Shown: positions 25,298-39,286 of the stretch, piece after piece
Layout of the letters: each line of letters starts with the position of its first letter
How positions within the stretch are numbered: the first letter of the stretch is position 1
Program-made: the position numbers and the translations under genes
NCBI RefSeq assembly: GCF_001654865.1
Contig: NZ_LXEO01000014.1
Location: forward strand, 1 to 64,000
Reading direction: 5' to 3'
DNA: 64,000 nucleotides
Origin: Buttiauxella noackiae ATCC 51607
Lineage (GTDB): Bacteria; Pseudomonadota; Gammaproteobacteria; Enterobacterales; Enterobacteriaceae
The notes under the pieces: generated by a model
Database searches by the model: none
Told to the model about the DNA's origin: nothing
Seen by the model: the letters and a program-made list of their open reading frames with translations, nothing else

Positions 25298-26098
25298 ATG
25301 ACTTTTGAGCGACAAACCTATTTTGCGCGTATTGGTTTTCAGGCGAAAGCCGTACCCACCTTAGAGACTTTGCAACGTATTCATCTGCTGCATACCTGTT
25401 CCATTCCTTTCGAAAATTTAGATGTTTTACTGGGACGTACCATCAGGCTTGAACTGGATAATGTTTTTGAAAAGCTCGTCGTCGCTGGGCGAGGAGGTTA
25501 TTGCTATGAGCAAAATGCCTTACTGCGCGCAGCGCTCGAAGATATCGGTTTTGAGGTGGAAGACCTGGCGGCGAGAGTGTTGATAACGCAACCGCCTGAA
25601 ATGCCACCAAGAACGCACCGCCTATTGCTGGTGACGATAAATCAACAGCGTTATCTGGCCGATGTAGGATTTGGTGGGAAAACGCTGACTTCCCCTTTGC
25701 GGTTGGAAACTGATGTTGAACAGCCTACGGCGCACGGCGTCTATCGCTTAACACATCTGGAGAGCGATTACTTGTTGAGTATCAAACAACCAGATGGCTG
25801 GATGCCTCTGTATCGTTTTGATCTGCAACCACAATATTTCAGTGACTTTCAGGTCTCTAATCACTATGTTTCGACATGGCCCGAGTCGTATTTCCGCCAT
25901 CATTTAATAGTGTGTTTGCATAAAACCGATGGCACGACGTTAACGCTGAGCGACCGACAGTTTAGCGATGAGCAACGCGAGGAAATAGGGGGCGAGCGAG
26001 CAATGTATCAGCTACTGCAAGAAAAGTTTGGCTTGCGCCTGGACCATGGGCAGCATGGCATTAGCGTTGCGGAGTTTACCGCTATTTGCCCCAAATGA
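25298..26098 (+). CDS. nhoA: Arylamine N-acetyltransferase (N-hydroxyarylamine O-acetyltransferase)
   Basis: Transfers acetyl from acetyl-CoA to arylamines and N-hydroxyarylamines. The 266-residue protein has the NAT catalytic triad: Cys69 (RGGYCYEQN), His107 (PRTHRLL) and Asp122 (LADVGFGG), the same numbering as the Salmonella/E. coli enzyme, which supports the second of two tandem ATGs as the start (AAGAGG eight bases upstream). In E. coli nhoA is likewise near pptA. It is divergent from lacI. Confidence 0.93.
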   Translation: MTFERQTYFARIGFQAKAVPTLETLQRIHLLHTCSIPFENLDVLLGRTIRLELDNVFEKLVVAGRGGYCYEQNALLRAALEDIGFEVEDLAARVLITQPPEMPPRTHRLLLVTINQQRYLADVGFGGKTLTSPLRLETDVEQPTAHGVYRLTHLESDYLLSIKQPDGWMPLYRFDLQPQYFSDFQVSNHYVSTWPESYFRHHLIVCLHKTDGTTLTLSDRQFSDEQREEIGGERAMYQLLQEKFGLRLDHGQHGISVAEFTAICPK

Positions 26099-26165
26099 TT
26101 TTCTGTTGCTATAACCTGATGTTTTAACGTATGAATAGAATTCGCCATTTTAAAGGAGATTTTTT

Positions 26166-26396
26166 GTGCCGCACATCACCGTAAAACACTTCCCGCGCGA
26201 ATTGACTGAAGAACAAAAAGAGGCGCTTGCCGCGGATATTTGTGCCGTGCTTAAGAAGCACTTTAATTCATCTGACGAGTCGCTCTCTGTTGCCTTAACC
26301 CCTATTCAGAAAGATCGCTGGAAAGAGGATGTCTACGATAAAGAGATCGCACCAGTACTGGATATTTTGGCCAAAAAACCCGGCTACAGTATGTAG
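26166..26396 (+). CDS. pptA: Tautomerase PptA
   Basis: A 76-residue member of the 4-oxalocrotonate tautomerase family, matching E. coli PptA (YdcE). The start is GTG preceded by AAAGGAG. After Met removal the N-terminal residue is Pro1, the catalytic base of the family (sequence PHITVKHFPRELTEEQK). The C-terminus KKPGYSM matches E. coli. The physiological substrate is unknown; the E. coli enzyme acts on phenylpyruvate-type enols. Confidence 0.92.
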   Translation: MPHITVKHFPRELTEEQKEALAADICAVLKKHFNSSDESLSVALTPIQKDRWKEDVYDKEIAPVLDILAKKPGYSM

Positions 26397-26404
26397 TTTG
26401 TTTC

Positions 26405-26434
26405 AAGAGCCGCTCTGTTTGCCAGGCGGCTCTT
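26405..26434. terminator. Terminator between pptA and tqsA
   Basis: The stem AAGAGCCGC/GCGGCTCTT with a 12-base loop sits between the convergent pptA and tqsA stops. Flanking sequence is T-rich on the plus strand. Confidence 0.7.
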
Positions 26435-26438
26435 GCTC

Positions 26439-27473
26439 TTAGTTTTTTGTTACATCACTCAATAGCACGGCAATGCTTCTGCCACCTTCGTTTTGTTCTA
26501 GCGCTATTTTCACCGCGATAGTGAGTGGAACCGACAGTAGCATTCCCACCGGGCCCAGCAGCCAGCCCCAAAAAATCAACGATAAGAAAACCACCAGAGT
26601 GGATAAACCCAATCCGCGTCCCATCATGCGTGGTTCGATGATATTGCCAAACACAAGATTGATGGCCAGATAACCGGCGACGACAAGCAGTGCATCGTAC
26701 AGCCCACTAAATACCAGTACTTGTGCAACCGGCGGGATTGCTGCCAGAACTGAGCCGATATTGGGAATATAGTTGAGTGAGAAGGCGAGTAGCCCCCAGA
26801 CAAAGGCAAAACGCACATCCAGCGTGGCTAACATTATCCACACCACCAACCCCGTCACCAGACTGATAGCGGTTTTTAGCACCAGATAATGGCTGACGCT
26901 GTCCAAAGCTCGCTGGATAGCCCCCATACCTTCTTCCGGTCGGGACATCAATTGTTGAAGTTTTACCGGCAATTGCGGTACTTCAATCAACATAAATACT
27001 ACGGTCAGCAGCAGCAAAAAGATTGATGTCATCGCGTTGGAAAGCTGAGTGATAAGACTCGTGACTAGCGTCATTGCCGCGTTAGGGTCGATATATTTAA
27101 CCAGTTCATCCACCGACACAGATATCCCGATCCGTTGCAGCCACGGGTCCAGTGTTTGCAGAGGGGAGATTAATAATGACCGATATTGCGGCAGCGTACG
27201 CGTCAGCTCATTAAGCGTGGTTCCCAGGTAGGCGAGTAGCACGGCCATGAAGAAAATAATCACTGAAATGACAAAGCTAATCGCCAGCACACGCGGGACT
27301 CGAATGCGCTCCAGACGACGAATCATTGGGTTGAGGATAATGGCAATAAACAGTGCCAGAATAAATGGCACGATGATCTCTGCAGCCACTTTTATACCCA
27401 CAAGGATGATGACTAACATCCCCAACATAATGACTGCTTTTAATCCACTTAACGTAATAATGGGTTTTGCCAT
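26439..27473 (-). CDS. tqsA: AI-2 exporter TqsA
   Basis: A 344-residue inner membrane protein, same length as E. coli TqsA (YdgG), of the AI-2 exporter (AI-2E/UPF0118) family. Its loss in E. coli raises intracellular AI-2 and biofilm. Multiple hydrophobic helices and conserved [17 protein letters not shown] and [20 protein letters not shown] stretches are visible. The divergent neighbour mdtJ and the downstream order are as in E. coli. Confidence 0.95.
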
Positions 27474-27936
27474 TATTGACGGTCTCCATCAGAATAATTC
27501 GTTCCTTAATTGTGTATATAGTACGGGTGGGGAAAGGAGGGGTATACACTTATTTTTTTTGCTACCCAAGCGTAAAGAATTGAAAAGGGAAGTTAGACGC
27601 CTTAAAAAATATGGTACAAATTCAGCGTGTTTGACTACTGAGGACAATTTACTATCCGCAACTGATGAGAAGCAACACCGCGGATACGTTGTGAAAATTA
27701 TGGACATTATGCTTACGAACAAGCTGTTCAGAACGTTAGTAACCCTTCAAGCCCCGTCTTTCTGTGCTTCATTTTCGCTTTCTGGTGAACAACACTGGCG
27801 CAACGCGCTGTAGATCTGCCTTCCTGAATCCCGAATTATCCCGGGATAAATAAACGCATTTTTTATTCGGCTTGCCTGCTATTTATGGCGTATTTGCAAG
27901 CTGTGGAACGGCTATTTTCTCTATCGGAGAGAAATC
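27474..27936. other. Divergent tqsA/mdtJ intergenic region
   Basis: 463 bases carrying A/T-rich stretches between two divergent start codons. It must contain both promoters, but no operator or small gene could be recognised; the one longer frame across it runs antisense into tqsA and looks spurious. Confidence 0.5.
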
Positions 27937-28311
27937 ATGATCTATTGGATTTTATTAGCATTGGCTATTGTTGCCGAAATTACGGGTACCTTATCCATGA
28001 AATGGTCCAGCGTCAGTGATGATAATCTCGGCTATATTTTTATGCTGTTTATGATCACCTTATCTTATATTTTATTATCATTTTCGGTTAAAAAAATCGC
28101 TCTTGGCGTCGCGTATGCCATGTGGGAAGGAATTGGTATTTTATTTATTACCCTTTTCAGTGTTCTGTTGTTCGACGAATCAATCTCACTAATGAAAATC
28201 ATCGGTCTGACCACGTTGGTTGTGGGGATTGCTTTGATTAAATCGGGAACCAGCGCTAAAAAAACGCGAACGGTAAAACCAGCAAAGGAGAGCGAACATG
28301 CAATCATTTGA
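27937..28311 (+). CDS. mdtJ: Spermidine exporter subunit MdtJ
   Basis: Small multidrug resistance family protein, 124 residues with four transmembrane helices and the conserved membrane Glu ([13 protein letters not shown] near 10-22). With MdtI it forms a heteromeric spermidine exporter in E. coli. The ATG follows CGGAGAG. The C-terminal tail is charged and its coding region overlaps mdtI by 14 bases. Confidence 0.95.
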
Positions 28312-28627
28312 ATGGGTTCACGCGCTATGGCTGCTCCTGGCGATCGTGTTAGAAATTGCCGCGAATATTTTCTTGAAACACTCTGACGGGTTTCGCCGTT
28401 TTGGCTACGGCATATTGTCGCTGTGTGCGGTTCTGGCAGCCTTTAGCGCGCTGGGGCAGGCAGTAAAAGGAATTGAACTGTCTGTAGCTTATGCACTATG
28501 GGGTGGCTTCGGCATTATCGCCACCGTGGCGGCTGGCTGGATTTTGTTTGGACAGCGTCTTAACCGCAAAGGTTGGGTGGGGCTGGTTTTATTGCTAGCC
28601 GGCATGGTGCTTATCAAACTGGCCTAA
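28298..28627 (+). CDS. mdtI: Spermidine exporter subunit MdtI
   Basis: A 109-residue SMR family partner of MdtJ with four helices and the conserved Glu in [16 protein letters not shown]. It starts within the end of mdtJ, with AAAGGAG upstream, so translation is coupled and subunits are made in balance. It is followed by a strong hairpin and convergent ydgD. Confidence 0.95.
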
Positions 28628-28633
28628 AAGAAA

Positions 28634-28658
28634 ACCGCCGGGTGCGAAACCCGGCGGT
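28634..28658. terminator. Terminator between mdtI and ydgD
   Basis: The stem ACCGCCGGGT-gcgaa-ACCCGGCGGT has a T-rich tail (ttttctttt) on the minus strand and lies between convergent stops. Confidence 0.85.
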
Positions 28659-28662
28659 GAGA

Positions 28663-29469
28663 TTATTGACTGGCTAAACTCTGTAGCTGGTCACGAAAAC
28701 CGGTCACAGAAATTGCGCGATTATCTGCACGATATCGGTCTTTAGCCGCAGGCGCCGAGCTTTGTACCGCAATCAACTGCCAGCCATTGTCCGTTTTTAA
28801 CATCAATGGTGAACCACTATCACCGGGTAACGTATCGCACTGATGCGACAGAACGGTTTTCTGTGCCCAACCGGTAATCAAACAATCGTTATGAGTATAG
28901 AGATCGTCAAGATGATCCTCGGGATAACCTGACTGTGTAACTTTACGATTCTGATTTTTTAGCGCTTCGGTGAGTGCGTCACGGTCGCCCTCAAACAATG
29001 GCAACGGCGTGATGCCGGAAGGCGGGTTGTGCAAAATAATCAGGCCAAAATCATGAGGTGCTGCACTGGCGGGAACAATCCAACCGTCACCATCAGGTTT
29101 AAGGCGACGACCCAGCGTAGATTCAACCCGGCCTTCAATATCATGAATTTCATAACGCCATTTGCCCTTATTAGACACAAAGCGCAGAGCGATGGCTTTA
29201 TCGGGTTTCCCATGGGGGGGTTGTAGCAAACAGTGCCCGGCGGTAAGTGCCAGGTGAGGAGAAATTAAGGTCGCGGTGCAAAGATTACCGCTGGCCGTCT
29301 CAAGCTGACCGATAGCATCCCACGGCGGTGTTGCGGGATCATTCACTCTTGTGCGGTCATCCTTGCCAAAAAATAGCGTTTTGACATTTGCAGCACTTTC
29401 GTCATCGGCATGAGAAAGGGCAGGTAACAAGCACAGTACACCTAACAACATCACAACTTTTTTGCGCAT
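28663..29469 (-). CDS. ydgD: Secreted trypsin-like serine protease YdgD
   Basis: A 268-residue putative periplasmic protease of the S1/trypsin-like clan. It has a signal peptide (residues 1-21, ending SHA) and a triad made of His in LALTAGHC, Asp in [10 protein letters not shown] and Ser in LPGDSGSPL. Cys pairs are present. The E. coli counterpart has no known substrate. Gene order mdtI-ydgD-ydgU-asr matches E. coli. Confidence 0.9.
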
Positions 29470-29566
29470 ATCACTCTCTGTGGGGCGATTAATTTTGATT
29501 GTTATATAAACCCAGCGAATGGACTAACTATAGACGGGTCGCACAAAAAGTGGGAGTAAAAAGTCA

Positions 29567-29650
29567 TTACAGCCAGAAGCTTAGCGTAATAATGCCGCAA
29601 AGAATAAGCAGCGTGAGGATGATTTCAAAGCTGTAGCGTCGCAACATCAT
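29567..29650 (-). CDS. ydgU: YdgU small membrane protein
   Basis: A 27-codon frame, MMLRRYSFEIILTLLILCG onward, ending SFWL: a short basic N-terminus then one hydrophobic helix. E. coli YdgU has the same length, position and RYxFE pattern and is expressed with asr at low pH. CGGAG precedes the first ATG by five bases. It lies 76 bases after the asr stop, beyond a hairpin, so it is probably made by read-through from asr. Confidence 0.8.
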   Translation of the reverse strand: MMLRRYSFEIILTLLILCGIITLSFWL

Positions 29651-29665
29651 CCAGACTCCGGAAGT

Positions 29666-29690
29666 AAACACCCGGCGAACCGGGTGTTTT
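29666..29690 (-). terminator. Attenuating hairpin between asr and ydgU
   Basis: AAACACCCGG-cgaa-CCGGGTGTTT forms a 10-base stem with flanking T/A runs. It would end most asr transcripts before ydgU. Confidence 0.8.
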
Positions 29691-29726
29691 TAGTGTGGCT
29701 ATGCTCTCGGGTTTGCCCCGATAACC

Positions 29727-30125
29727 TTATGCAGCTGGCTGAGTTGCAGGTTTTGCTGCTTCAGTTTTAGCGGCAGGTTTTTTGTGATGCTTTTTAGCAG
29801 CCTGGGCTTTCTGTGCAGCTGGTGTTGCCGCTTCAGTTTTAGTTACTGCTTTTTTGTGTTTTTTAGCAGCCTGAGCTTTCTGTTCGGTCTGGGCAGGTTT
29901 TGCTGCTTCAGTTTTCTTCACTTCTTTCTTGTGTTTTTTAGCGGCTTGTGCTTTCTGCTCGGTAGCGGCTTTTTTGTGTTTTTTATGATGAGTGGTTTTT
30001 GCAGCAGGAGCTTTAGCTGCAGCAGAAGTGGTAGCAGGAGCTGGGGTCGCAGTAGTTTCAGCAGCGAAAGCAGCAGAAGACAGACCCATTGCAGCGGCAA
30101 CAACCAGAGCTAATACTTTATTCAT
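29727..30125 (-). CDS. asr: Acid shock protein precursor Asr
   Basis: A 132-residue periplasmic protein with a signal peptide ([21 protein letters not shown]) and an extremely Lys/Ala/His-rich, disordered body. Repeats of the type [12 protein letters not shown] occur at about residues 56, 81 and 105. Asr is strongly induced at acidic pH through RstA and acts as a periplasmic chaperone-like, positively charged protein. The repeat number varies between species, so the length is not informative. Confidence 0.95.
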
Positions 30126-30238
30126 CTCGACATCCTCAATTCATGTTTGAATTTATGTTTGTTTGAAGCCCTGCGGGGCCGTTGAGATGAACTATAGACT
30201 TGTGAATCAATGCGTTCAGTGAGTGATTAGTATCGGTG

Positions 30239-30252
30239 TGTAACGGATTGTA
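30239..30252 (-). promoter_or_regulatory. RstA box upstream of asr
   Basis: On the minus strand TACAATCCGTTACA matches the RstA consensus TACATNTNGTTACA at all but two defined positions. A -10-like TATAGT lies about 40 bases downstream. asr is the best known RstA target, and rstAB lie at the end of this window. Confidence 0.65.
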
Positions 30253-30404
30253 CGAAGCCGGGGGGGGCTAAAAGTCTGAAAACAGACAAAAGAGACACTC
30301 TTTTTAGTTGCATTACCAATGAAATCGATGTTCAAAATCTGATTTATATCAAAACGGTTAATAATAAACAGCCAGAATGAAACGGCTTTTTAAATTATCC
30401 TTTT
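30253..30404 (+). promoter_or_regulatory. Upstream region of the hxs cluster with FNR-like box
   Basis: CTGATTTATATCAA (30339-30352) differs by one base from the FNR site TTGAT-N4-ATCAA. A run of seven Gs lies near 30260. No strong -10 was recognised, so the promoter itself is uncertain. Confidence 0.4.
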
Positions 30405-30434
30405 AAGCGGCAATAAATCTATTGCCGCTTTTTC
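30405..30434 (+). terminator. Terminator-like hairpin before hxsA
   Basis: AAGCGGCAATA-aatc-TATTGCCGCTT is a perfect 11-base stem followed by TTTTTC, ending only about 15 bases before the hxsA start, next to the ribosome binding site. It could attenuate read-through into the cluster or shield the 5' end of the mRNA. Confidence 0.7.
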
Positions 30435-30447
30435 GTGAGGAAAACGA

Positions 30448-30768
30448 ATGAAACAACTACCTAAAGTTTCCAAAGTAGCTTTGGAAGAACTGGAATATAA
30501 AAATAAAACTAAGCCTGTTATTGCAGGGATTATTGCGACCATGTTATCCGGTGCGAGCATTCAGGCGAATGCATCTACTGATGCAAGCGTAATCACTCCT
30601 GCAATTCAAACCACTGTTACTCAGAATACCAATACCTCGGGTAATACATCGGCGGTTATTCTTAACAAACCGGCATTAGAGGGTGAAGCGTTCGCAGCCC
30701 ATTACAGCCATTCAAGTCACTCCAGTCACTCAAGCCACTATTCTTGTACGCCGGGTTCGACTTGCTAA
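30448..30768 (+). CDS. hxsA: His-Xaa-Ser repeat precursor peptide (HxsA-type)
   Basis: A 106-residue predicted RiPP precursor. The N-terminal part (MKQLPKVSKVALEELEYKNK) is charged, followed by a signal-like hydrophobic segment (PVIAGIIATMLSGASIQANA, about 23-42) and a Thr/Asn-rich linker. The C-terminus carries five His-Xaa-Ser triplets (HYS HSS HSS HSS HYS, residues 85-99) and then CTPGSTC with Cys100 and Cys106. The ATG follows TGAGGAAAACGA. The repeat and the two radical SAM genes downstream match the Hxs system defined by comparative genomics; the modification and final product are unknown. Confidence 0.88.
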   Translation: MKQLPKVSKVALEELEYKNKTKPVIAGIIATMLSGASIQANASTDASVITPAIQTTVTQNTNTSGNTSAVILNKPALEGEAFAAHYSHSSHSSHSSHYSCTPGSTC

Positions 30769-30773
30769 AATAC

Positions 30774-30799
30774 ATAGCCAGCGCAAAGCTGGCTATTTT
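30774..30799 (+). terminator. Hairpin after hxsA
   Basis: ATAGCCAGC-gcaaa-GCTGGCTAT followed by TTTT lies between the precursor stop and the next gene. Partial termination here would give more precursor than maturation enzymes, a common RiPP arrangement. Confidence 0.75.
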
Positions 30800-30818
30800 A
30801 AGAAACAAAGGTGGATGT

Positions 30819-31205
30819 ATGATTCCAGTTTATAAAGATAAAAATGAATTAGGCCAGTATGTTGCGTTAGTTCTGGATAAGGCGATATATAGCGATCGTG
30901 CGATTATGAAAACATGCTATGTATTCACTGACCGTTATTATATTCATGTAACAAGTTTATCCGCTGAACAATATCAAATCTATTTCTATTCCAAAGCAGA
31001 AATAGCCAAAAATACACAAATGGAATCACTCCCGATTCAGCATTTTCTGGAAGAGTTAAATGACAATCAATTGCGGCAAATCTTGTTAGCAGAAACGCAA
31101 GTTGTGCATGAAGAGATTGTGCGTAAAGCCTTTTCACCTGCGGCTCAACTGGCTTCCCGAGAGTATGCGCAAGATGCACTCAGCATTATGGTTTCGGCAG
31201 GGTGA
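30819..31205 (+). CDS. hxsD: HxsD-like protein of the His-Xaa-Ser system
   Basis: A 128-residue protein from the ATG at 30819 (AAGGTGG upstream); an earlier in-frame ATG at 30744 lies in the precursor gene and is rejected. The stretch AIYSDRAIMKTCYVFTDRYYIHV (about residues 20-42, quoted here in pieces: IYSDRAI, YVFTDRYYI) and the C-terminal QLRQILLAETQ...EIVRKAFSPAA fit my recollection of the HxsD family. Role in maturation is unknown; it may bind the precursor or the SAM enzymes. Confidence 0.65.
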   Translation: MIPVYKDKNELGQYVALVLDKAIYSDRAIMKTCYVFTDRYYIHVTSLSAEQYQIYFYSKAEIAKNTQMESLPIQHFLEELNDNQLRQILLAETQVVHEEIVRKAFSPAAQLASREYAQDALSIMVSAG

Positions 31206-31206
31206 T

Positions 31207-31431
31207 ATGAACATACAATTAGCATCAAATATTTATAGCCTGCCGGCGATTGAAAATATGCTGGAGCAATTTTCAGATTATCTGGAGGGCCATTGTGTAT
31301 TCAATGGGGAACTGGATTTGCAGTTAAATGTTCGGGATGAGTTTCGTTCTGATTATGCGGAAATTATAAACTCTTTTTTGAATAATATCCTCGATTTGAG
31401 TATTCAGGAAAAACTTAACCATGAGTGTTAA
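31207..31431 (+). CDS. Second small HxsD-like protein
   Basis: A 74-residue protein starting at the ATG at 31207, one base after the previous stop. It has its own IYSLPAI motif and an acidic, helical C-terminus (SFLNNILDLSIQEKL). The pattern resembles HxsD in shape and motif spacing, suggesting a diverged or truncated paralogue of its neighbour. Its stop overlaps the start of hxsB by 11 bases. Function unknown. Confidence 0.6.
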   Translation: MNIQLASNIYSLPAIENMLEQFSDYLEGHCVFNGELDLQLNVRDEFRSDYAEIINSFLNNILDLSIQEKLNHEC

Positions 31432-32878
31432 ATTTAGATCGAAAGAAGCCTTCAGTACTGAGAATTATTCTCTTTTACCTTTCCGCTTCACTAAAATTGA
31501 TAGCGACCGTTATTTTCTTTCTACTGACTACGGTGAATGGTTAAGCCTTAATTCGGTAACGCTTAACTCATTATTAGCAAAAGAAAAAATAACGGATGAA
31601 GAAATCTATTTTCAGCTAAAATCCAGGCATTTTATCTCTACAGATAAGACAAATACGCAAATCGATCTTCTGGCTTCAAAATACAAAACTAAAAAATCGT
31701 TTCTCGAGAATTTTTCACAATTGCATATCTTTGTGTTAACGGTTCGCTGTAATAATTCTTGTGTCTATTGCCAGGCATCACGTAAATCCTGTCAGTCAGA
31801 TCATAATCATTTTGATATGAGTGAAGAGGTTCTGGATAAGAGCATTGAACTGTTTTTATCCATGCCTTCATCCAAATTAACACTTGAATTTCAGGGGGGA
31901 GAGTCAACCCTAACGATGCCGTTAATTAAACAAGCGGTACAAAGAGTTAATGAATCAAATACCGATAAAGATATTCAGTATGTCGTCTGTACAAACTTAT
32001 GTGAATTGAGCGACCAAGACCTGGATTTCTTGATAGACAACAACTTCTCGATTAGCACCTCGTTAGACGGCCCTGAAGAATTACATAACCATAATCGTAA
32101 GTTTGGACGCTCGGGGGCTTATGCTCCGCTGGTTGAAAACCTCAAAAAAATCAAAGTGAAAGGGGCTTTCAGCCAGGTTAGTGCGCTGATGACTACCACC
32201 CGGCAGAGTATTGAACAACCCAAAGAGATCATTGACGAATACGTGCGCCAGGGCTTTCGCAGCATTTTTATCCGTGAACTCAACCCTTACGGTTTTGCGC
32301 AAAAATACTTTCACAAAATTGGCTATGACTCAGCGACCTTCCTGCGCTTTTATGAACAATGCCTCGACTACATCATTGAACTGAATAAGCAGGGCATCGC
32401 TTTTCGTGAATCTTATGCCTGCCTGATACTGAAAAAACTCCTCACCCCGTGGGCGACGGGCTTTGTGGACTTGCAATCGCCGTGTGGCTCAGGCTTTGGC
32501 GTCACGCTGTATAACTACGATGGCAGCATCTACCCAAGCGATGAAAGCCGCATGATGGCCGAAACGGGAGACAAATATTTCCGTATGGGAAGCATCCTGG
32601 AAAACACACGTGAAGAGCTATTTTTTGGGCCAGTGATGCAAAAACTTGCCGCTGCGGGAGTCAACGATAGCTTGCCTGTCTGTAGTGATTGCGCGTTCGC
32701 GCCATATTGTGGTGCCGATCCGGTACGTCGCTATCAGGTCACCGGTTCCATTTATGGCCATCCTGGCAAAGATGAATTCTGTGTGAAAAACAAAAGTATT
32801 ATTCAGATAGTGGTTAAAAAACTGCTCGACGCCGATCCCGAGACCAAAGAAATATTGTTGCAGTGGGGCATAAGATGA
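31421..32878 (+). CDS. hxsB: Radical SAM/SPASM maturase HxsB
   Basis: A 485-residue radical SAM enzyme. The [4Fe-4S]-SAM motif is Cys110-x3-Cys114-x2-Cys117 (RCNNSCVYC), followed by EFQGGEST near 157-163. A C-terminal SPASM-type region supplies Cys355 (SPCGSGFG), Cys421, Cys424, Cys430 (VCSDCAFAPYC) and Cys454 for auxiliary clusters. The N-terminus (about 1-90) resembles a peptide-recognition domain. Such enzymes make C-C, thioether or related crosslinks in ribosomal peptides; here the target is probably the His-Xaa-Ser repeat. The start of hxsC overlaps its stop. Confidence 0.88.
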   Translation: MSVKFRSKEAFSTENYSLLPFRFTKIDSDRYFLSTDYGEWLSLNSVTLNSLLAKEKITDEEIYFQLKSRHFISTDKTNTQIDLLASKYKTKKSFLENFSQLHIFVLTVRCNNSCVYCQASRKSCQSDHNHFDMSEEVLDKSIELFLSMPSSKLTLEFQGGESTLTMPLIKQAVQRVNESNTDKDIQYVVCTNLCELSDQDLDFLIDNNFSISTSLDGPEELHNHNRKFGRSGAYAPLVENLKKIKVKGAFSQVSALMTTTRQSIEQPKEIIDEYVRQGFRSIFIRELNPYGFAQKYFHKIGYDSATFLRFYEQCLDYIIELNKQGIAFRESYACLILKKLLTPWATGFVDLQSPCGSGFGVTLYNYDGSIYPSDESRMMAETGDKYFRMGSILENTREELFFGPVMQKLAAAGVNDSLPVCSDCAFAPYCGADPVRRYQVTGSIYGHPGKDEFCVKNKSIIQIVVKKLLDADPETKEILLQWGIR

Positions 32879-34080
32879 ACACTCTGTCATTAGCTAAAGA
32901 CACGCTGTTTCTGTTTTGTCAGGCGGTTGACACGCATCGTCTGAACCAGCCACTATTGGGCAAAGTGATTGTCGACGCCGGAGCGGGTTCTGCAAAAGAT
33001 CTGCTTTTTTTAGATTCAGAAACGGCAGCGACTGATGTCACTCACACTCTATTTCAGGCCGTAATCTGCTCCATCACCCACCCGCAACTTGACTGGTTGG
33101 AAAAGTCACTCAATTGCCCATTAATCGTGGTAAGTGAGACAACCGTTTTCACCGCCGGGGATGTCGTTTCGGTCAGCGTAAAAGGCAGGATCCATCGTCA
33201 TTATCGCGTCGCTTCCGGTAACAATGCTTTTTTGGTGACCGAAGCCTGTAATAATTTTTGCATTATGTGTCCGCAACCGCCTAAACCACTGAATCTTCAA
33301 CCTGATGAATCAAGTGAGAGGCGGGTTAATCAAATTCTCAATCTGATCGAGAAAGAGCATATTCCCGATACGTTGTGCATTACTGGCGGTGAACCTACGA
33401 TGCTGAAGCAGGAGTTGGTTAATATTGTTGAAAATATTTCAACCAAAATGCCAGACACACTGGTGCACCTGTTAACCAACGGACGGGCTTTCTGCTACGA
33501 AAAGTATGTTGCTGAAATCGCAGCGGCGGCGAAAGGGAAGATGCTGGCCGGAATTCCTCTGTTTGCACATGTTTCTGATATTCATGACTATATAGTCCAG
33601 GGCGAGGGCGCTTTTGATCAAACCCTGGCGGGTCTGTTAAATTGCTACAAATATGGTATCGCTGTGGAATTAAGAGTGGTTCTTCATCAGCAAACCATCC
33701 CGTATTTGCCGGAACTGGCGGAGTTTATCAGCCGAAATCTGTTTTTCGTGAAGCATGTTGCTTTGATGGGGATGGAGACGATGGGTTTTGCAAAAATGAA
33801 CCGCGAAGAGCTGCATATGGATCCATGGGATTACAAAGACACGCTATCCCGGGCCACCAAACTTTTGAACCTTTATGGGATCGAAACCAGGATTTTCAAT
33901 TTGCCGTTATGTGTCGTGAACAGCGATGTGCACCACCACTGCGCGCAGAGTATCAGCGATTTCAAGAACATTTTTTCGCCTGACTGCTCGGGTTGCACTA
34001 AACAGGATGTGTGCTGCGGCTTTTTCAGCTCATCAACGGAAAAGCAACCGTTAAGCACTCATATTGTTCCATTCCATTAA
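32875..34080 (+). CDS. hxsC: Radical SAM protein HxsC
   Basis: A 401-residue second radical SAM enzyme. The cluster motif is Cys125-x3-Cys129-x2-Cys132 (EACNNFCIMC), with GGEP at 171-174. A Cys-rich C-terminus (Cys346, 356, 371, 374, 380, 381; CSGCTKQDVCCGF) suggests an additional cluster. The first 110 residues do not look like a SAM barrel. ATG at 32875 overlaps the hxsB TGA by 4 bases (ATGA), so the two enzymes are co-translated. In the Hxs system both HxsB and HxsC are required partners by co-occurrence; the reaction is unknown. Confidence 0.87.
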   Translation: MNTLSLAKDTLFLFCQAVDTHRLNQPLLGKVIVDAGAGSAKDLLFLDSETAATDVTHTLFQAVICSITHPQLDWLEKSLNCPLIVVSETTVFTAGDVVSVSVKGRIHRHYRVASGNNAFLVTEACNNFCIMCPQPPKPLNLQPDESSERRVNQILNLIEKEHIPDTLCITGGEPTMLKQELVNIVENISTKMPDTLVHLLTNGRAFCYEKYVAEIAAAAKGKMLAGIPLFAHVSDIHDYIVQGEGAFDQTLAGLLNCYKYGIAVELRVVLHQQTIPYLPELAEFISRNLFFVKHVALMGMETMGFAKMNREELHMDPWDYKDTLSRATKLLNLYGIETRIFNLPLCVVNSDVHHHCAQSISDFKNIFSPDCSGCTKQDVCCGFFSSSTEKQPLSTHIVPFH

Positions 34081-34090
34081 TTCACTGGTT

Positions 34091-34128
34091 TTGTCGGTGC
34101 AGCAGTTAAGCCTTTGCCGCACCGACAA
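34091..34128. terminator. Hairpin between hxsC and the M32 gene
   Basis: TTGTCGGTGC/GCACCGACAA forms a 10-base stem with an 18-base loop between convergent stops. No T run, so termination is likely but not certain. Confidence 0.55.
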
Positions 34129-34132
34129 GGTG

Positions 34133-35617
34133 TTATAAATAACGCGCTTCTAAATGCTTACGGAAATACAACGGGTTAAGGTCTTCCCCCGTTGCATTGG
34201 TAATCAATTCAGACGTTGTGAATCGGCTACCGTGTTGCCAGATATTCTGACGTAACCAGTCGAACAATGCGCTGAAGTTCCCTTCAGCAATATCGCTATC
34301 AAGCTGTGGCAATGCGCGTTTGGCTGCATTGAACAGTTGAGCTGCATACATTGCACCCAGTGTGTATGAGGGGAAGTAACCGAAAGCACCGTCAGTCCAG
34401 TGAATATCCTGCATACAGCCATTGCGGAAGTTATCTTTGGTAGAAAGCCCCAACCATTGCTGCATTTTTTCATCCCACAGTGCCGGGATGTCTTCCACTT
34501 CAATTTCGCCATCAATCAGCGCACGCTCAATTTCATAGCGTAAAACAACGTGGGCAGGATAGCTGACTTCATCCGCATCAACGCGGATAAAACCACGTTC
34601 AACACGCTGGTTCACGGCAGTAAAGTTTGTGCTTTCAAATGCAGGCTGTTTGCCAAAGCGTGCCGTAACCATCGGTAGCAACAGTTTAAGGAACTCTTTG
34701 CTTCGGCCCAGTTGCATCTCAAAGAAGAGACTTTGTGACTCATGAATCGCCGTGGAACGCGCCAGAGCAACAGGCTGGCCAAGCCATTCACGTGGCAGGT
34801 TTTGCTCGTAACGCGCATGACCTGTTTCGTGGATAACGCCAAACAGTGCGCTGACCAGATCGCCTTCATCGTAACGCGTGGTAATGCGTACATCTTCCGG
34901 GACACCACCACAAAATGGATGTGCGCTAACATCAAGCCGGCCGCCGTTAAAATCAAAGCCCAATAGCTTCATGGTTTCCAGGCCAAGCTCGCGCTGGTCT
35001 TGCGTAGCGAAGGGGCCAACAGGTGTTATCACCGACTCTTTTGCTTGTTTATCGACAACTTTCTGCAACAGATCTGGCAGCCAGGTACGCAAGTCACCAA
35101 ACAGAACGTCGAGTTTAGCGCTGCTCATCCCGGGTTCATAAATGTCTAACAACGCGTCGTACGGGGATTTCCCCTTTGCTTCGGCGCGCAGTTTCGCCTC
35201 TTCACGGCTAACACGAACCACTTCTTTTAAATTGGTGGAAAAACCCTGCCAATCGTTGGCTGGGCGTTGCGTTCGCCAGCCATGTTCACAGCGCGTTCCA
35301 ACCAGAGATTTTTCTTCTACCAGTGATGCTGGTAATAGAATGGCTTCTTGATACTGACGTGTCATTTCGCGCAGGTTTGCACGTTCAACATCATTCAAAT
35401 TTTCCTGAACCGCAGCCTGCAATAGCGTGGCGATTTTTTTATCGGTCAGAATTTGGTGCTGCAAAACACTCAGTTCAGCCAGGGCTTCGCCGCGTGCTGT
35501 GCTGCCGTTCGGTGGCATATTGGTAAACATATCCCAGCCAGCGATGGCTGAAAGATGATCAAAACGTGAAAGACGCTGGAAGGTGCGGGTGAGATGATTG
35601 TAGTTTTGCTTTTCCAT
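34133..35617 (-). CDS. M32 family metallocarboxypeptidase
   Basis: A 494-residue zinc carboxypeptidase of the thermostable Taq type (M32). The metal motif HETGH (GVIHETGHARYEQ, about residue 263) and the conserved HPFCGGVPEDVRITTRYDEGD, AIHESQSLFFE and IRVDADEVSYPAHVVLRYE stretches are visible. It removes C-terminal residues other than Pro from peptides in the cytoplasm. It has no close E. coli K-12 counterpart at this position. It is adjacent and convergent to the hxs cluster, so a role in trimming the Hxs product is conceivable but not supported by operon structure. Confidence 0.9.
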   Translation of the reverse strand: MEKQNYNHLTRTFQRLSRFDHLSAIAGWDMFTNMPPNGSTARGEALAELSVLQHQILTDKKIATLLQAAVQENLNDVERANLREMTRQYQEAILLPASLVEEKSLVGTRCEHGWRTQRPANDWQGFSTNLKEVVRVSREEAKLRAEAKGKSPYDALLDIYEPGMSSAKLDVLFGDLRTWLPDLLQKVVDKQAKESVITPVGPFATQDQRELGLETMKLLGFDFNGGRLDVSAHPFCGGVPEDVRITTRYDEGDLVSALFGVIHETGHARYEQNLPREWLGQPVALARSTAIHESQSLFFEMQLGRSKEFLKLLLPMVTARFGKQPAFESTNFTAVNQRVERGFIRVDADEVSYPAHVVLRYEIERALIDGEIEVEDIPALWDEKMQQWLGLSTKDNFRNGCMQDIHWTDGAFGYFPSYTLGAMYAAQLFNAAKRALPQLDSDIAEGNFSALFDWLRQNIWQHGSRFTTSELITNATGEDLNPLYFRKHLEARYL

Positions 35618-35689
35618 AGGGCCTCATAAGAGATGGTTTACGCTGCGAAAATAGCAAAAAGCCATCCCGAAAACGAGGCCGTAACGGGG

Positions 35690-36940
35690 TTATTGTGCGC
35701 GATGATGCAAACGCGTCCCTACCAGTAATGAGATGACCAAAAGTGAGCCAATAAAACTCGCGACTCCCGACCAGCCAAACTGGTGCCAGAAAACACCGCC
35801 GAGCGTCCCGGCAAGACTTGAACCGAGATAATAGCTGAACAAATAGAGTGACGAGGCTTGCCCTTTAGCACGTTTAGCTCGCGGGCCAATCCAGCCGCTG
35901 GCGACTGAGTGTGCGGCGAAGAATCCTGCAGAAAAGAGCAGCATTCCTGCAAAGATAGTGATGAGGGGGGAGAAGACGGTAAGCACCAGACCTAATAACA
36001 TCACCGCAGTGGAAAATATCATTACCGGGCCACGGCCAAATTTGGCTGTCATTGCCCCGGCTTTTGGCGAACTCCAGGTGCCGGTTAAATAGGCCACGGA
36101 CAGCAACCCCACCACCGCCTGACTTAAAAACCAGGGGCCTTGCATCAAACGATATCCAATATAATTAAACAGCGTGACGAACGCGCCCATCAGTAAAAAA
36201 CCTTGAGCAAATAAGAGCGGCAGACCCTGATCGCGCCAGTGCAGACGGAAGTTAATAAAGAGGGTTTTTGGCCGCAGCGAAGAAGGGCGAAAATGTTTTG
36301 ATGCCGGTAATATTTTCCAGAACATAAGTGCTGATGCCAGCGCGAAGCAACCAATGGCTGCGACAGCGATACGCCAGTTAAAGAAGTCGGTAATCACGCC
36401 GCTTAACAGACGTCCACTCATACCGCCAATGGAGTTTCCGCTGATATATAGCCCCATCGAAAAGGCCACCACGCTTGGGTGAATTTCTTCACTCAGATAT
36501 GTCATGCCGACCGCAGCTACTCCACTAAGAGACAGGCCAATCAAGGCGCGCATTACTAATATGCCGTGCCAACTTGTCATCATGGTTGAAAGCAGCGTGC
36601 AGCATGACGCGAGTAGCAGCGCGGTAACCATCACGGGCTTACGACCAATGGCATCAGACAGCGGGCCAGTAAAGAGCAGCCCAATCGCCAGCATGGCGGT
36701 AGAAACAGATAACGAAATACTGCTACTGGCTGGTGAAACCCCAAATTCATGGGACAGAACCGGCAGTATCGGTTGTACACAATAAAGCAGCGCGAAGGTG
36801 GCAAGTCCTGCGGAAAAGAGCGCGAGTGTAACTCGCATAAACTGAGGTGAACCACGCTTAATGTATGTGACAGGCTGGGGAGAACGTCTTTCGTCAACAT
36901 CTGCTGCCGGGGCTGTGTTGACGAGGGTTGTACGGCTCAA
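35690..36940 (-). CDS. ynfM: MFS transporter YnfM
   Basis: A 416-residue major facilitator with 12 predicted helices, collinear with E. coli YnfM. The motif-A loop GPLSDAIGRKPVM near 92-104 is intact. The physiological substrate is not established. It is divergent from the LysR gene ynfL with a 102-base spacer, a usual arrangement in which the regulator controls the transporter. Confidence 0.92.
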   Translation of the reverse strand: MSRTTLVNTAPAADVDERRSPQPVTYIKRGSPQFMRVTLALFSAGLATFALLYCVQPILPVLSHEFGVSPASSSISLSVSTAMLAIGLLFTGPLSDAIGRKPVMVTALLLASCCTLLSTMMTSWHGILVMRALIGLSLSGVAAVGMTYLSEEIHPSVVAFSMGLYISGNSIGGMSGRLLSGVITDFFNWRIAVAAIGCFALASALMFWKILPASKHFRPSSLRPKTLFINFRLHWRDQGLPLLFAQGFLLMGAFVTLFNYIGYRLMQGPWFLSQAVVGLLSVAYLTGTWSSPKAGAMTAKFGRGPVMIFSTAVMLLGLVLTVFSPLITIFAGMLLFSAGFFAAHSVASGWIGPRAKRAKGQASSLYLFSYYLGSSLAGTLGGVFWHQFGWSGVASFIGSLLVISLLVGTRLHHRAQ

Positions 36941-37042
36941 AATGGATCCTTAAAAATACAAAAATGAAATCTTGTTTTCAGAGTAGAAAACTGTAAATGT
37001 TCTGTCTAATATATTAATAATCTCAATTGATATTTTTAAAGT

Positions 37043-37951
37043 ATGAATATTGAATTGCGTCACCTGCGCTACTTTATTGCAGTGGCAGAAGAGCTGCATT
37101 TTGGGCGAGCTGCCGCGCGTTTACGTATCTCTCAGCCACCTCTGAGCCAGCAAATTCAAATCCTTGAACAGCAAATTGGCTCTCGTCTACTGGCGAGAAC
37201 CAATCGCAGCGTAAACCTGACCGCCGCAGGCAGCCAATTTCTGCAAGATGCCAGGCAGATTTTAAACCAGGTTGATATAGCAGCAGGGCGCGCAGCGAGA
37301 CTTCATCAAGGCGAAACCGGCGAGTTGCGTATTGGTTTCACCTCATCTGCTCCGTTTATTAAAACGGTATCCGATAGCCTTTCGACTTTTCGCCGCAGCT
37401 ACCCGGACGTTCATCTCCAGATGCGGGAAATTAACACACGCGAGCAAATTGCCCCGTTAAACGACGGCGAACTCGAACTCGGTTTAATGCGCAACACTCG
37501 GCTTCCGGATACGCTCGCCTGGAGTCTGGTTCTACGTGAGCCACTACTGGCAATGGTGCATCGTGACCACCCGCTGGCTCAATGTTCAAAAGTTTCTCTG
37601 CAACAGCTGGCACATGAACCTTTTGTCTTCTTTGACCCACTTGTTGGGACGGGGCTGTATGAGGATATTCTCGGCCTACTGCAACGCCATGGTATTTCAC
37701 CCTACATCACCCAGGAAGTGGGCGAGGCCATGACCATCATAGGGCTGGTGTCTGCCGGGTTAGGGGTTTCTATACTTCCGGCGTCATTTAAGCGTGTCCG
37801 TCTATCGGAAGTGGTGTGGCTGCCAATTGATGAACCGGAAGCGCAATCTGAAATGTGGCTGGTGTGGCCAAAACATCGTGAACTTTCTGCGGCGGCACTT
37901 CGCATCTGCGCGCTGCTCACTGAGTCAATAACGACGTTAAAAGGCGGTTAA
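37043..37951 (+). CDS. ynfL: LysR-type regulator YnfL
   Basis: A 302-residue LysR-family regulator. The winged helix-turn-helix occupies residues 1-60 (RHLRYFIAVAEELHFGRAAARLRISQPPLSQQIQ), followed by the type 2 periplasmic-binding effector domain. It probably controls the divergent ynfM; the A/T-rich spacer can hold LysR T-N11-A sites, but I did not single one out. The effector is unknown. Confidence 0.92.
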   Translation: MNIELRHLRYFIAVAEELHFGRAAARLRISQPPLSQQIQILEQQIGSRLLARTNRSVNLTAAGSQFLQDARQILNQVDIAAGRAARLHQGETGELRIGFTSSAPFIKTVSDSLSTFRRSYPDVHLQMREINTREQIAPLNDGELELGLMRNTRLPDTLAWSLVLREPLLAMVHRDHPLAQCSKVSLQQLAHEPFVFFDPLVGTGLYEDILGLLQRHGISPYITQEVGEAMTIIGLVSAGLGVSILPASFKRVRLSEVVWLPIDEPEAQSEMWLVWPKHRELSAAALRICALLTESITTLKGG

Positions 37952-38068
37952 TACAGCAGATTATGTGCGGTAAATCACAACCCTACCTAAATATTTGACT
38001 CCTTCACTTGAAGTGTTTCACCATAGCCCAAAGTTTATTTCGAAGCGCGAAAATAAAGGGAGTCGCAA

Positions 38069-39286
38069 GTGGTTGCTGATAGTCAACCGGGCCATATTGA
38101 TCAGATCAAGCAAACCAATGCGGGCGTAGTTTATCGCTTGATTGATACCCATGGGCCGGTGTCGCGCATCGATCTTTCTCGCCTGGCGCAACTTGCGCCC
38201 GCCAGCATCACGAAAATTGTTCGTGAAATGATTGAAGCTCATCTGGTGCAGGAAACCGAAATTCAAGACCCCGGCAGCCGCGGGCGTCCAGCTGTGGGCT
38301 TGATGCTGGAAACTGAAGCATGGCACTACTTGTCTGTGCGTATTAGCCGTGGGGAAATCTCCCTTGGCCTGCATGATTTAAGCAGCAAGCTGATAGTTGA
38401 AGATACGGTTGGCCTTGCTGTTAATGACTCACAACCTCTTATTGAACGCATCATCGCGCAGATTGACCAGTTCTTTATCCGCCATCAGCAAAAGCTTGAA
38501 CGCCTGACGGCGATAGCTATCACCATGCCCGGAATTATCGACACCAAGCGTGGCATAGTGCATCGGATGCCGTTTTATGAAGTCTGCGATATGCCGCTCG
38601 GTGAGATTCTGGAAAACTACACCGGTGTGCCGGTTTACATTCAGCACGACATTAGTGCCTGGACGATGGCTGAAGGGCTGTTTGGTGCCTCAAAAGGTGC
38701 TCGTGATGTGATTCAGGTTGTTATTGATAATAACGTCGGTGCTGGCGTGATTACCGATGGACGCCTGCTCCATGCGGGCAGCAGTAGCCTGGTTGAAATT
38801 GGCCATACGCAAGTTGATCCTTACGGCAAACGTTGTTATTGCGGTAATCACGGTTGCCTAGAAACGATTGCCAGTATTGACAGCGTACTTGAGTTGGCAC
38901 AGCTTCGCATGAGCCAGTCGATGGGTTCCATGCTGCATGAACAACCTCTGACGGTCGAATCTCTGTGTGACGCTGCATTAAGTGGCGATCTATTAGCGAA
39001 AGATATCATTCTTGGTATTGGCACCAATGTCGGCCGTATTCTTGCGATAATGGTGAATCTGTTCCATCCGCAAAAAATCCTGATTGGTTCCCCGTTTAAC
39101 CGAGCCGCAGATATTCTGCATCCGGCAATCACCAATTGCATTCGCCAGCAGGCATTACCGGCGTATAGCGAGCATATGATTGTGGAAAGTACCCAGTACA
39201 ATCATCGCGGAACTATGGCGGGAGCGGCGTTGGTAAAAGATGCAATGTATAACGGTTCGTTATTGATTCGCTTGCTGCAAGGCTAA
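38069..39286 (+). CDS. mlc: Global sugar repressor Mlc (DgsA)
   Basis: A 405-residue ROK-family repressor of glucose PTS and related genes, released by membrane-bound EIICB-Glc. It has an N-terminal helix-turn-helix (about 20-75, SRIDLSRLAQLAPASITKIVREM), a ROK core with zinc site GHTQVDPYGKRCYCGNHGCLE (split motif: His, CYCGNHGC), and E. coli-like C-terminus. Start is GTG with AGGGAG upstream, as in E. coli. Confidence 0.96.
   Translation: MVADSQPGHIDQIKQTNAGVVYRLIDTHGPVSRIDLSRLAQLAPASITKIVREMIEAHLVQETEIQDPGSRGRPAVGLMLETEAWHYLSVRISRGEISLGLHDLSSKLIVEDTVGLAVNDSQPLIERIIAQIDQFFIRHQQKLERLTAIAITMPGIIDTKRGIVHRMPFYEVCDMPLGEILENYTGVPVYIQHDISAWTMAEGLFGASKGARDVIQVVIDNNVGAGVITDGRLLHAGSSSLVEIGHTQVDPYGKRCYCGNHGCLETIASIDSVLELAQLRMSQSMGSMLHEQPLTVESLCDAALSGDLLAKDIILGIGTNVGRILAIMVNLFHPQKILIGSPFNRAADILHPAITNCIRQQALPAYSEHMIVESTQYNHRGTMAGAALVKDAMYNGSLLIRLLQG

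Follow-up and report, generated by a model that had tools for sequence, protein, structure and literature searches.

An HxsD-like subtype of the His-Xaa-Ser (Hxs) radical SAM cassette next to asr in Buttiauxella noackiae ATCC 51607

The hxs cassette and its five genes

We analyzed a 64,000-nucleotide stretch of the genome of Buttiauxella noackiae ATCC 51607 (assembly GCF_001654865.1, contig NZ_LXEO01000014.1, positions 1 to 64,000 of the forward strand), hereafter the window, in which a first reading of the letters alone (the sequence-only reading) had noted a gene cluster of the His-Xaa-Ser (Hxs) type with radical S-adenosylmethionine (SAM) enzymes. This cluster consists of five co-directional genes with open frames throughout, located between positions 30448 and 34080: hxsA, hxsD, a further HxsD-like gene that we refer to as D2, hxsB, and hxsC. 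It is apparently intact. Protein families were assigned with the curated NCBIfam models and their own cut-offs, and Pfam was used for domains.

30448 to 30768, forward strand: hxsA, a 106-residue precursor with an LPKV leader, a hydrophobic export-type segment, five His-Xaa-Ser (HxS) triplets, and a CTPGSTC tail
30819 to 31205, forward strand: hxsD, 128 residues; TIGR03976, 70.3 bits (cut-off 50)
31207 to 31431, forward strand: D2, the HxsD-like gene, 74 residues; NF038315, 20.7 bits (cut-off 41)
31421 to 32878, forward strand: hxsB, a radical SAM/SPASM-type maturase of 485 residues; TIGR03978, 582.1 bits (cut-off 370)
32875 to 34080, forward strand: hxsC, a second radical SAM enzyme, 401 residues; TIGR03977, 356.4 bits (cut-off 267.9)

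HxsB, HxsC, and HxsD score above their curated cut-offs and are members of the Hxs system; for HxsB and HxsC, a failure to match these models had been named beforehand as the outcome that would refute the sequence-only reading. That reading was also accurate about the CxxxCxxC motifs at residues 110-117 of HxsB and 125-132 of HxsC, about the five triplets (HYS, HSS, HSS, HSS, and HYS) and the Cys-containing tail of the precursor, and about overlapping genes (11 nt for D2/hxsB and 4 nt for hxsB/hxsC; hxsA and hxsD are separated by 50 nt, hxsD and D2 by 1 nt). It had further described two small proteins. Both are present, the first being recovered by the HxsD model that had been proposed as a check, while the second has to be redefined as a distinct HxsD-like paralogue.

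Judged by profile comparison, D2 is a paralogue of HxsD: an hhalign search with a D2 profile of 4 sequences against an HxsD profile of 18 sequences gave a probability of 96.2% and an E value of 2e-9. D2 is homologous to the HxsD-like family NF038315 (HxsD_rel) but is not a curated member of it; its residues 3-66 align to the whole model, yet its score falls well under the cut-off. The D2 proteins of Rahnella sp. AA (L003; 38% identity to D2 of the window) and of L073 (45%) reached 28.2 and 21.1 bits, respectively, that of L104 (25%) passed with 45.8 bits, and the L074 fragment gave no match. Among 51 tabulated clusters, which include some near-duplicates, D2 is present in five, and these form one clade with a support of 0.998. 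The clusters of this type are those of the window, of G074 (another genus), of G364 (L074, decayed), of Rahnella sp. AA, and of one IMG/VR contig (L104). In all five D2-bearing clusters HxsA starts with an LPxV leader, and no N-terminal LPxV was found in 44 other clusters with an HxS-repeat open reading frame (L089 and L112 are partial or doubtful); HxsA of L109 carries an LPDV further inside the protein. Since the five D2 clusters represent one clade, D2 and the LPxV leader possibly go back to a single evolutionary event and are not independent evidence for a contact between D2 and the leader.

The cassette is an HxsD-like (D2) subtype of the known, uncharacterised Hxs system (NCBIfam TIGR03976-TIGR03979, NF038296). 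It shares with this system the three proteins above cut-off and an adjacent HxS-repeat protein; it differs from it in an HxsA that stays under four model cut-offs, the extra D2, the LPxV leader, the Cys tail, and the missing peptidoglycan-binding domain. We found no earlier description of the marks of the subtype (D2, LPxV leader, and Cys tail), although the HxsD-like model of NCBI already exists. The founding paper on the Hxs system, by Haft and Basu, is cited in PMC9062424. Chance occurrence or misread frames as the source of the cassette are ruled out by the model scores, together with the shuffle test of the triplets described below.

The asr-M32 junction and the origin of the cassette

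The cassette is flanked on its left by asr and on its right by a convergent gene for an M32 carboxypeptidase (34133-35617, minus strand; Peptidase_M32, 541 bits), beyond which lies a gene that we take to be ynfM. The sequence-only reading, which had named asr and ynfM as the neighbors, was thus right on one side and one gene off on the other. Two features define the junction.

30264 to 34128, unstranded: inserted segment, both ends known to within roughly 10-15 nt
30239 to 30252, unstranded: RstA-box-like site of the asr promoter, exact TGTAACNNNNTGTA, just left of the inserted segment

The same reading had stated that E. coli K-12 has nothing at this position and had suggested that the genes were acquired. 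Among 20,395 E. coli records, a blastn search with 30405-34080 found nothing, a result that holds at the nucleotide level only, as proteins were not searched. A comparison with congeners showed the hxs genes to be missing from the junction in all 11 of them. Their matches to the left side (ending at or before position 30269) and to the M32 side (starting at 34127-34140) lie 10 to about 150 bases apart, with no hxs gene in between; in G392 the left match stops before asr, and asr itself was not found. We read the junction gaps from the RstA-like pattern in 10 congeners (L043, from G392, gave none). Four gaps contain a GC-rich hairpin (L038, L040, L042, and L045) and three contain other sequence (L039, L041, and L044). 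The window retains GAAGCCGGGG, the left hairpin arm, and diverges beyond it, which places the insertion in or beside the apparent terminator of the M32 gene. The gaps of L035-L037 hold a longer palindrome-like repeat in place of the GC-rich hairpin, and the asr-M32 gap is a variable spot.

These empty sites are strong evidence for acquisition, and the horizontal acquisition of the cassette is supported by this comparison. The A/T-richness at 30.8-32.1 kb, also put forward by the sequence-only reading, is real (guanine-plus-cytosine [GC] content of 34-40% in 500-base intervals over 30750-31749 versus 48.8% for the window) but weak evidence when taken alone; hxsC, with a GC of 0.467, is close to the window mean.

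The genome G074 carries a cassette at the same junction, in the order ynfM, M32, hxsC-B-D2-D-A, asr, and a ydgD-like gene, and in our reading the two copies were probably acquired separately at a permissive spot. What speaks against this is the occupation of one and the same junction in two genera, as well as an identity between the two genomes that is similar for hxsB (71%) and for M32 (75%). Both points would suit an old resident of the asr-M32 junction that was lost from most species rather than gained recently. We nevertheless consider such an old resident unlikely. The hxs genes of G074 have a GC of 0.37-0.52 (0.38-0.55 at third codon positions, GC3) next to M32, ydgD-like, and ynfM genes with a GC of 0.64-0.65 (GC3 0.76-0.87); the junction is empty (55 bases) in G195, the sole congener of G074 that was compared, as it is in the 11 congeners of the window; words common to the non-coding edges of both inserts are no longer than 11 bases; and in the HxsB tree G074 joins G364, whose copy resides at another locus, and not the window (support 0.90, from a 320-residue piece of the G364 protein). 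Ratios of non-synonymous to synonymous substitution (dN/dS) between the window and G074 or Rahnella were of no help, the synonymous rate being undefined for most genes.

A mobile element at this copy was rejected as a vehicle: no tRNA or tmRNA gene lies within 26000-39000, and the identified flanks are chromosomal and common to the congeners (smaller open reading frames were annotated in part). The same applies to a phage origin. The best relatives of HxsB are 42% identical in phage records and 48% in IMG/VR (L104), none of them close, and HxsC of the window had no match in viral contigs.

HxsA, its maturases, and the proposed product

The tandem triplets are the hallmark of HxsA. When the whole protein was shuffled 200,000 times, no run of at least four HxS triplets occurred and two shuffles reached three; when the last 24 residues alone were shuffled (200,000 times), 28 shuffles reached four triplets and none five. 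HxsA scored 44.8 bits with the HxsA2 model (cut-off 48), 24.3 with HxsA (121.65), 24 with HxsA3 (65), and 14.3 with HxsA4 (55), and consequently cannot be filed under any of these four subfamilies. Across 209 HxS triplets from 35 HxsA proteins, several of them near-identical and some with start codons chosen by us, the middle residue varies (Ser 85, Arg 61, Ala 26, Tyr 18, and others 19). While the constancy of His and Ser is built into the motif search, so that the evidence lies in the tandem spacing, the pattern of a free residue between a constant His and a constant Ser suggests an involvement of both side chains in the modification.

HxsA is probably a small exported peptide, as judged from its sequence. 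All 35 HxsA proteins showed a hydrophobic segment at the N terminus in a simple hydropathy scan run without a control, and the 12-residue hydropathy mean was at least 1.5 in all of them except L113 (1.24). In the window, L003, L073, and L104 this segment comes after the leader, beginning at residue 23-26, and is itself followed by an AxA-like site. Twelve relatives of HxsA were tested for PG_binding_1 (L079 and L092 among them are near-identical), and ten scored above the Pfam cut-off (7/9 and 3/3); L099 and L100 lack the domain. Export-type segment and PG_binding_1 in relatives both point to the cell envelope and not to a diffusible antibiotic, and because of the domain in relatives we favor an envelope role for HxsA by analogy. 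The CTPG[SK]TC tail was seen only in HxsA of the window, L003, L073, and L074.

Both maturases contain a radical SAM core according to Pfam; SPASM in HxsB is sub-threshold (15.2 versus 21.5 bits). A C-terminal CxxCxxxxxC is found in each (HxsB 421-430 and HxsC 371-380). HxsB is related to SPASM-type peptide maturases: it scored 112 bits with CcpM, 105.3 with PapB, 95.1 with the sulfatase maturase, and 64 with the maturase of SCIFF; among the 25 of 55 matches listed, there was no cyclophane-former model besides YhhB and GrrM/OscB. By sequence, the solved structures nearest to HxsB are 5wgg, the best match, which we take to be CteB, and the anaerobic sulfatase maturase 4k37 (E 4.1e-21 by profile); their substrates differ, and a single-sequence structure search aligned about 60% of HxsB (residues 106-402). 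HxsC had no relative among solved structures at E 0.01. An anti-phage defence system was also considered and dismissed, since PADLOC gave just partial matches to the radical SAM core of pVip (viperin) at 25-36 bits.

HxsB and HxsC probably modify HxsA. PMC9062424 mentions a putative dependence of HxS precursors on these two enzymes. In the mechanism that we propose, HxsA would be made with its N-terminal LPxV leader, and HxsB and HxsC would act on it while it is still in the cytoplasm, HxsD and D2 serving as recognition or scaffold subunits. The modified protein would then leave the cytoplasm through Sec, and signal-peptidase cleavage near QANA|STDAS would yield a periplasmic peptide of about 64 residues whose two tail cysteines could form a disulfide. 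The likeliest modification is a carbon-carbon crosslink that would tie the His of each triplet to its Ser, at the beta-carbon and two positions further on, up to five times within HYSHSSHSSHSSHYS; it would be visible as a mass shift of about -2 Da per crosslink and up to -10 Da. Taken together, an acquired cassette whose HxsA is modified by HxsB and HxsC, exported, and furnished with His-Ser crosslinks is our best overall explanation, and it holds about half of our confidence. Our data establish the gene content, the open frames, the family membership, the empty sites, the homology of D2 to HxsD, the conserved triplets, and the hydrophobic segment. We infer from sequence and analogy the crosslink, the division of labor between HxsB and HxsC, the role of HxsD and D2, export, cleavage, and periplasmic function; the binding of metal in the periplasm is one option by analogy to noursin, which PMC10206099 describes as a copper-binding, His-crosslinked lanthipeptide.

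The crosslink is modeled on the triceptide maturases, radical SAM enzymes that link an aromatic residue or His with the residue two positions on (i+2), Phe-Ser and His-Ala pairs among them. As summarized in PMC11002830, MscB connects Phe C4 to Ser C-beta, HaaB and ScaB connect His C2 to Ala C-beta (each from i to i+2), and YhhB connects His C2 to Arg C-beta. Hxs chemistry would unite the His-based and the Ser-based pattern. The Hxs system differs from these maturases in its two radical enzymes plus HxsD, in a substrate that carries its motifs in tandem and has an export-type segment, and in low scores of HxsB with the YhhB and GrrM/OscB models.

Several observations weigh against our explanation. 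HxsB reached only 55.4 bits with the cyclophane-former model YhhB (cut-off 445) and 44.8 bits with GrrM/OscB (cut-off 310), and among the listed matches the triceptide models rank behind CcpM, PapB, and the sulfatase maturase. Given this order and 5wgg as the best solved match, the odds for a His-Ser crosslink from i to i+2 are about even. A single type of crosslink leaves the second radical enzyme unexplained. HxsA of the window has no PG_binding_1 in Pfam, so that envelope action rests on analogy and on the hydrophobic segment. A sigma-70 scan gave 4 sites versus 8.3 expected, none on the forward strand, and no promoter-like site 5' of hxsA. The model of HxsD is moderately confident, with a predicted local distance difference test score (pLDDT) of 80.4, and Foldseek returned no solved structure for HxsD or D2 at E 0.001.

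The lowest E values of HxsD in Foldseek (0.007-0.03) belong to meganucleases (root-mean-square deviation near 18) and to large subunits of poxvirus RNA polymerase. Lower in the list are the RNA polymerase K chains 8qep_K, 5x50_K, and 6drd_K (probability 0.94-0.99, E 0.03-0.08, template-modeling score 0.44-0.54), which we take to be RPB11-type dimerisation subunits, and these matches make a heterodimer of HxsD and D2 a reasonable guess from the models. D2 is predicted to fold as strand-helix-strand-strand-long helix (pLDDT 94.2) and gave weak Foldseek matches only; HxsD is predicted to have one extra strand before and one extra helix after this core. No PqqD-like (RiPP recognition element, RRE) description occurred among the 50 rows listed from each of the two Foldseek searches with these proteins (697 and 1090 matches at E 10). 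A bolder version of our proposal, in which an envelope-retained peptide would carry five consecutive His-to-Ser cyclophanes as a rigid rod with a disulfide loop, and HxsD/D2 would be a new heterodimeric reader of the LPxV leader for radical SAM enzymes instead of an RRE, strikes us as doubtful.

Other chemistries on the same substrate deserve consideration. HxsB could act in the manner of a sulfatase maturase and oxidise the triplet Ser to formylglycine or a dehydro residue, leaving His for recognition or later metal binding. Anaerobic sulfatase maturases react on the beta-carbon of Ser or Cys, and they rank high for HxsB by model and by structure; the His is, however, kept as strictly as the Ser around a free middle residue (again as tandem spacing), five aldehydes side by side would make for a reactive product, and the second radical enzyme would still lack a task, so that we rate Ser oxidation as quite unlikely. 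Thioether chemistry, in which the tail Cys pair would be joined to Ser or Thr carbons in the way of PapB or the SCIFF maturase, draws on the presence of these two enzymes among the HxsB relatives, on 5wgg as the best solved match, and on the conserved CTPG[SK]TC of four clusters. We hold it to be very unlikely, as a disulfide formed after export accounts for the Cys pair, and Cys is absent from 28 of the 35 HxsA proteins, which means that a family-wide chemistry cannot need it. Epimerisation or another backbone-carbon change without crosslinks is likewise a very improbable outcome: a tandem single-motif substrate would suit any radical SAM enzyme that works iteratively, but such a change has no obvious need for a fixed His-x-Ser pair, weak as this argument is.

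Flanking signals and distribution of the cassette

Further features surround the genes.

30339 to 30352, forward strand: FNR-like palindrome, weak candidate for anaerobic control, 9/10 to TTGAT-N4-ATCAA
30405 to 30430, forward strand: hairpin and T run directly 5' of the hxsA ribosome-binding site, part of the fold 30371-30451
30774 to 30796, forward strand: hairpin between hxsA and hxsD, -15.5 kcal/mol, z -3.1
34091 to 34128, unstranded: hairpin in the gap that separates hxsC from the convergent M32 gene, within the fold 34078-34140 (-24.6 kcal/mol, without shuffle control)

The hairpin between hxsA and hxsD recurs at the same place in L003, L073, and L074 (z -2.3, -2.1, and -2.1), the same four clusters that share the Cys tail; in L104 the gap is too short for it. 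A hairpin ahead of the enzyme genes is usual where more transcript is required of the precursor than of its enzymes. The hairpin 5' of hxsA (fold of 30371-30451, -23.2 kcal/mol, without shuffle control) is possibly an attenuator; strong hairpins are also present upstream of hxsA in L003, and L073 has a different fold there. The hairpin at 34091-34128 is possibly a terminator common to hxsC and the M32 gene. Terminator-like sites number 8 versus 3.5 expected, and no Rfam family reached its gathering score within 30000-34300. The FNR-like site was discarded as chance-level (6 window matches versus 3.1 expected, and 11 of 100 shuffles reach 6). The RstA-like site has 3 window matches at up to one mismatch versus 2.9 expected by chance, one of them exact (30239-30252). 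This site is present in 10 of the 11 congeners and belongs to the asr promoter itself; it agrees with the RstA box consensus TACATNTNGTTACA, as given in PMC4117788, solely in the TACA/GTTACA parts.

HxsB above cut-off was detected in 17/392 genomes at the family level, 6/295 for the order, 3/274 for the class, 5/12 for the genus, and 13/398 for the phylum, in overlapping samples that each include G000; neighborhoods were fetched for part of the family-level loci. A search of the 398 phylum genomes with NF038315 gave no match and is uninformative because G000 itself went unmatched. HxsB of L003 and L104 is 62% and 48% identical to that of the window, and the L003 cassette sits between genes read as glgP and glpD. 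No second HxsA was found in the genome at E 1, and no window-type HxsB in the 11 congeners at E 1e-80. Four congeners (G392, G394, G395, and G397) have an HxsB above cut-off at other loci.

Hxs genes are widespread, yet we found no report of a product in the open-access papers searched, in line with the claim of the sequence-only reading that no product structure or activity is established (the founding paper lies outside that scope). PMC8446631 lists hxsA-D among the genes of one strain, and PMC10352776 contained no mention of Hxs. With 3.6 kb, open frames, an enterobacterial host, and natural relatives with empty sites, the copy described here is a practical test case.

On plasmids, the HxsB of the window matched 507 records at E 1e-5, including 13 Escherichia plasmid records, and 23 of the 507 passed E 1e-60; a Klebsiella-type HxsB query matched 346 of 72,556 records at E 1e-60 (320 from Klebsiella and 274 predicted conjugative). 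The loci L091-L093 of G392, G394, and G395 represent a different Hxs subtype, with an HxsB 26-30% identical to that of the window, hxsA placed 3' of hxsC, and PG_binding_1 in HxsA. A close relative of this subtype occurs on plasmids, 325 of the 72,556 records being at least 90% identical to L098 HxsB, and the one plasmid region of the L098 type that we read adjoins psiA/psiB. In the decaying D2-type cluster of G364 (L074, 5251-5570 and 1951-4763), the hxsA leader and the HxS core lie in different frames, and the frames of hxsB and hxsC are interrupted. Finally, a full hxsA-D-B-C set (L096) is annotated on a Leptospira phage record (KF114877.1, about 78952-82261), near a 'mobilome CxxCx(11)CxxC' gene.

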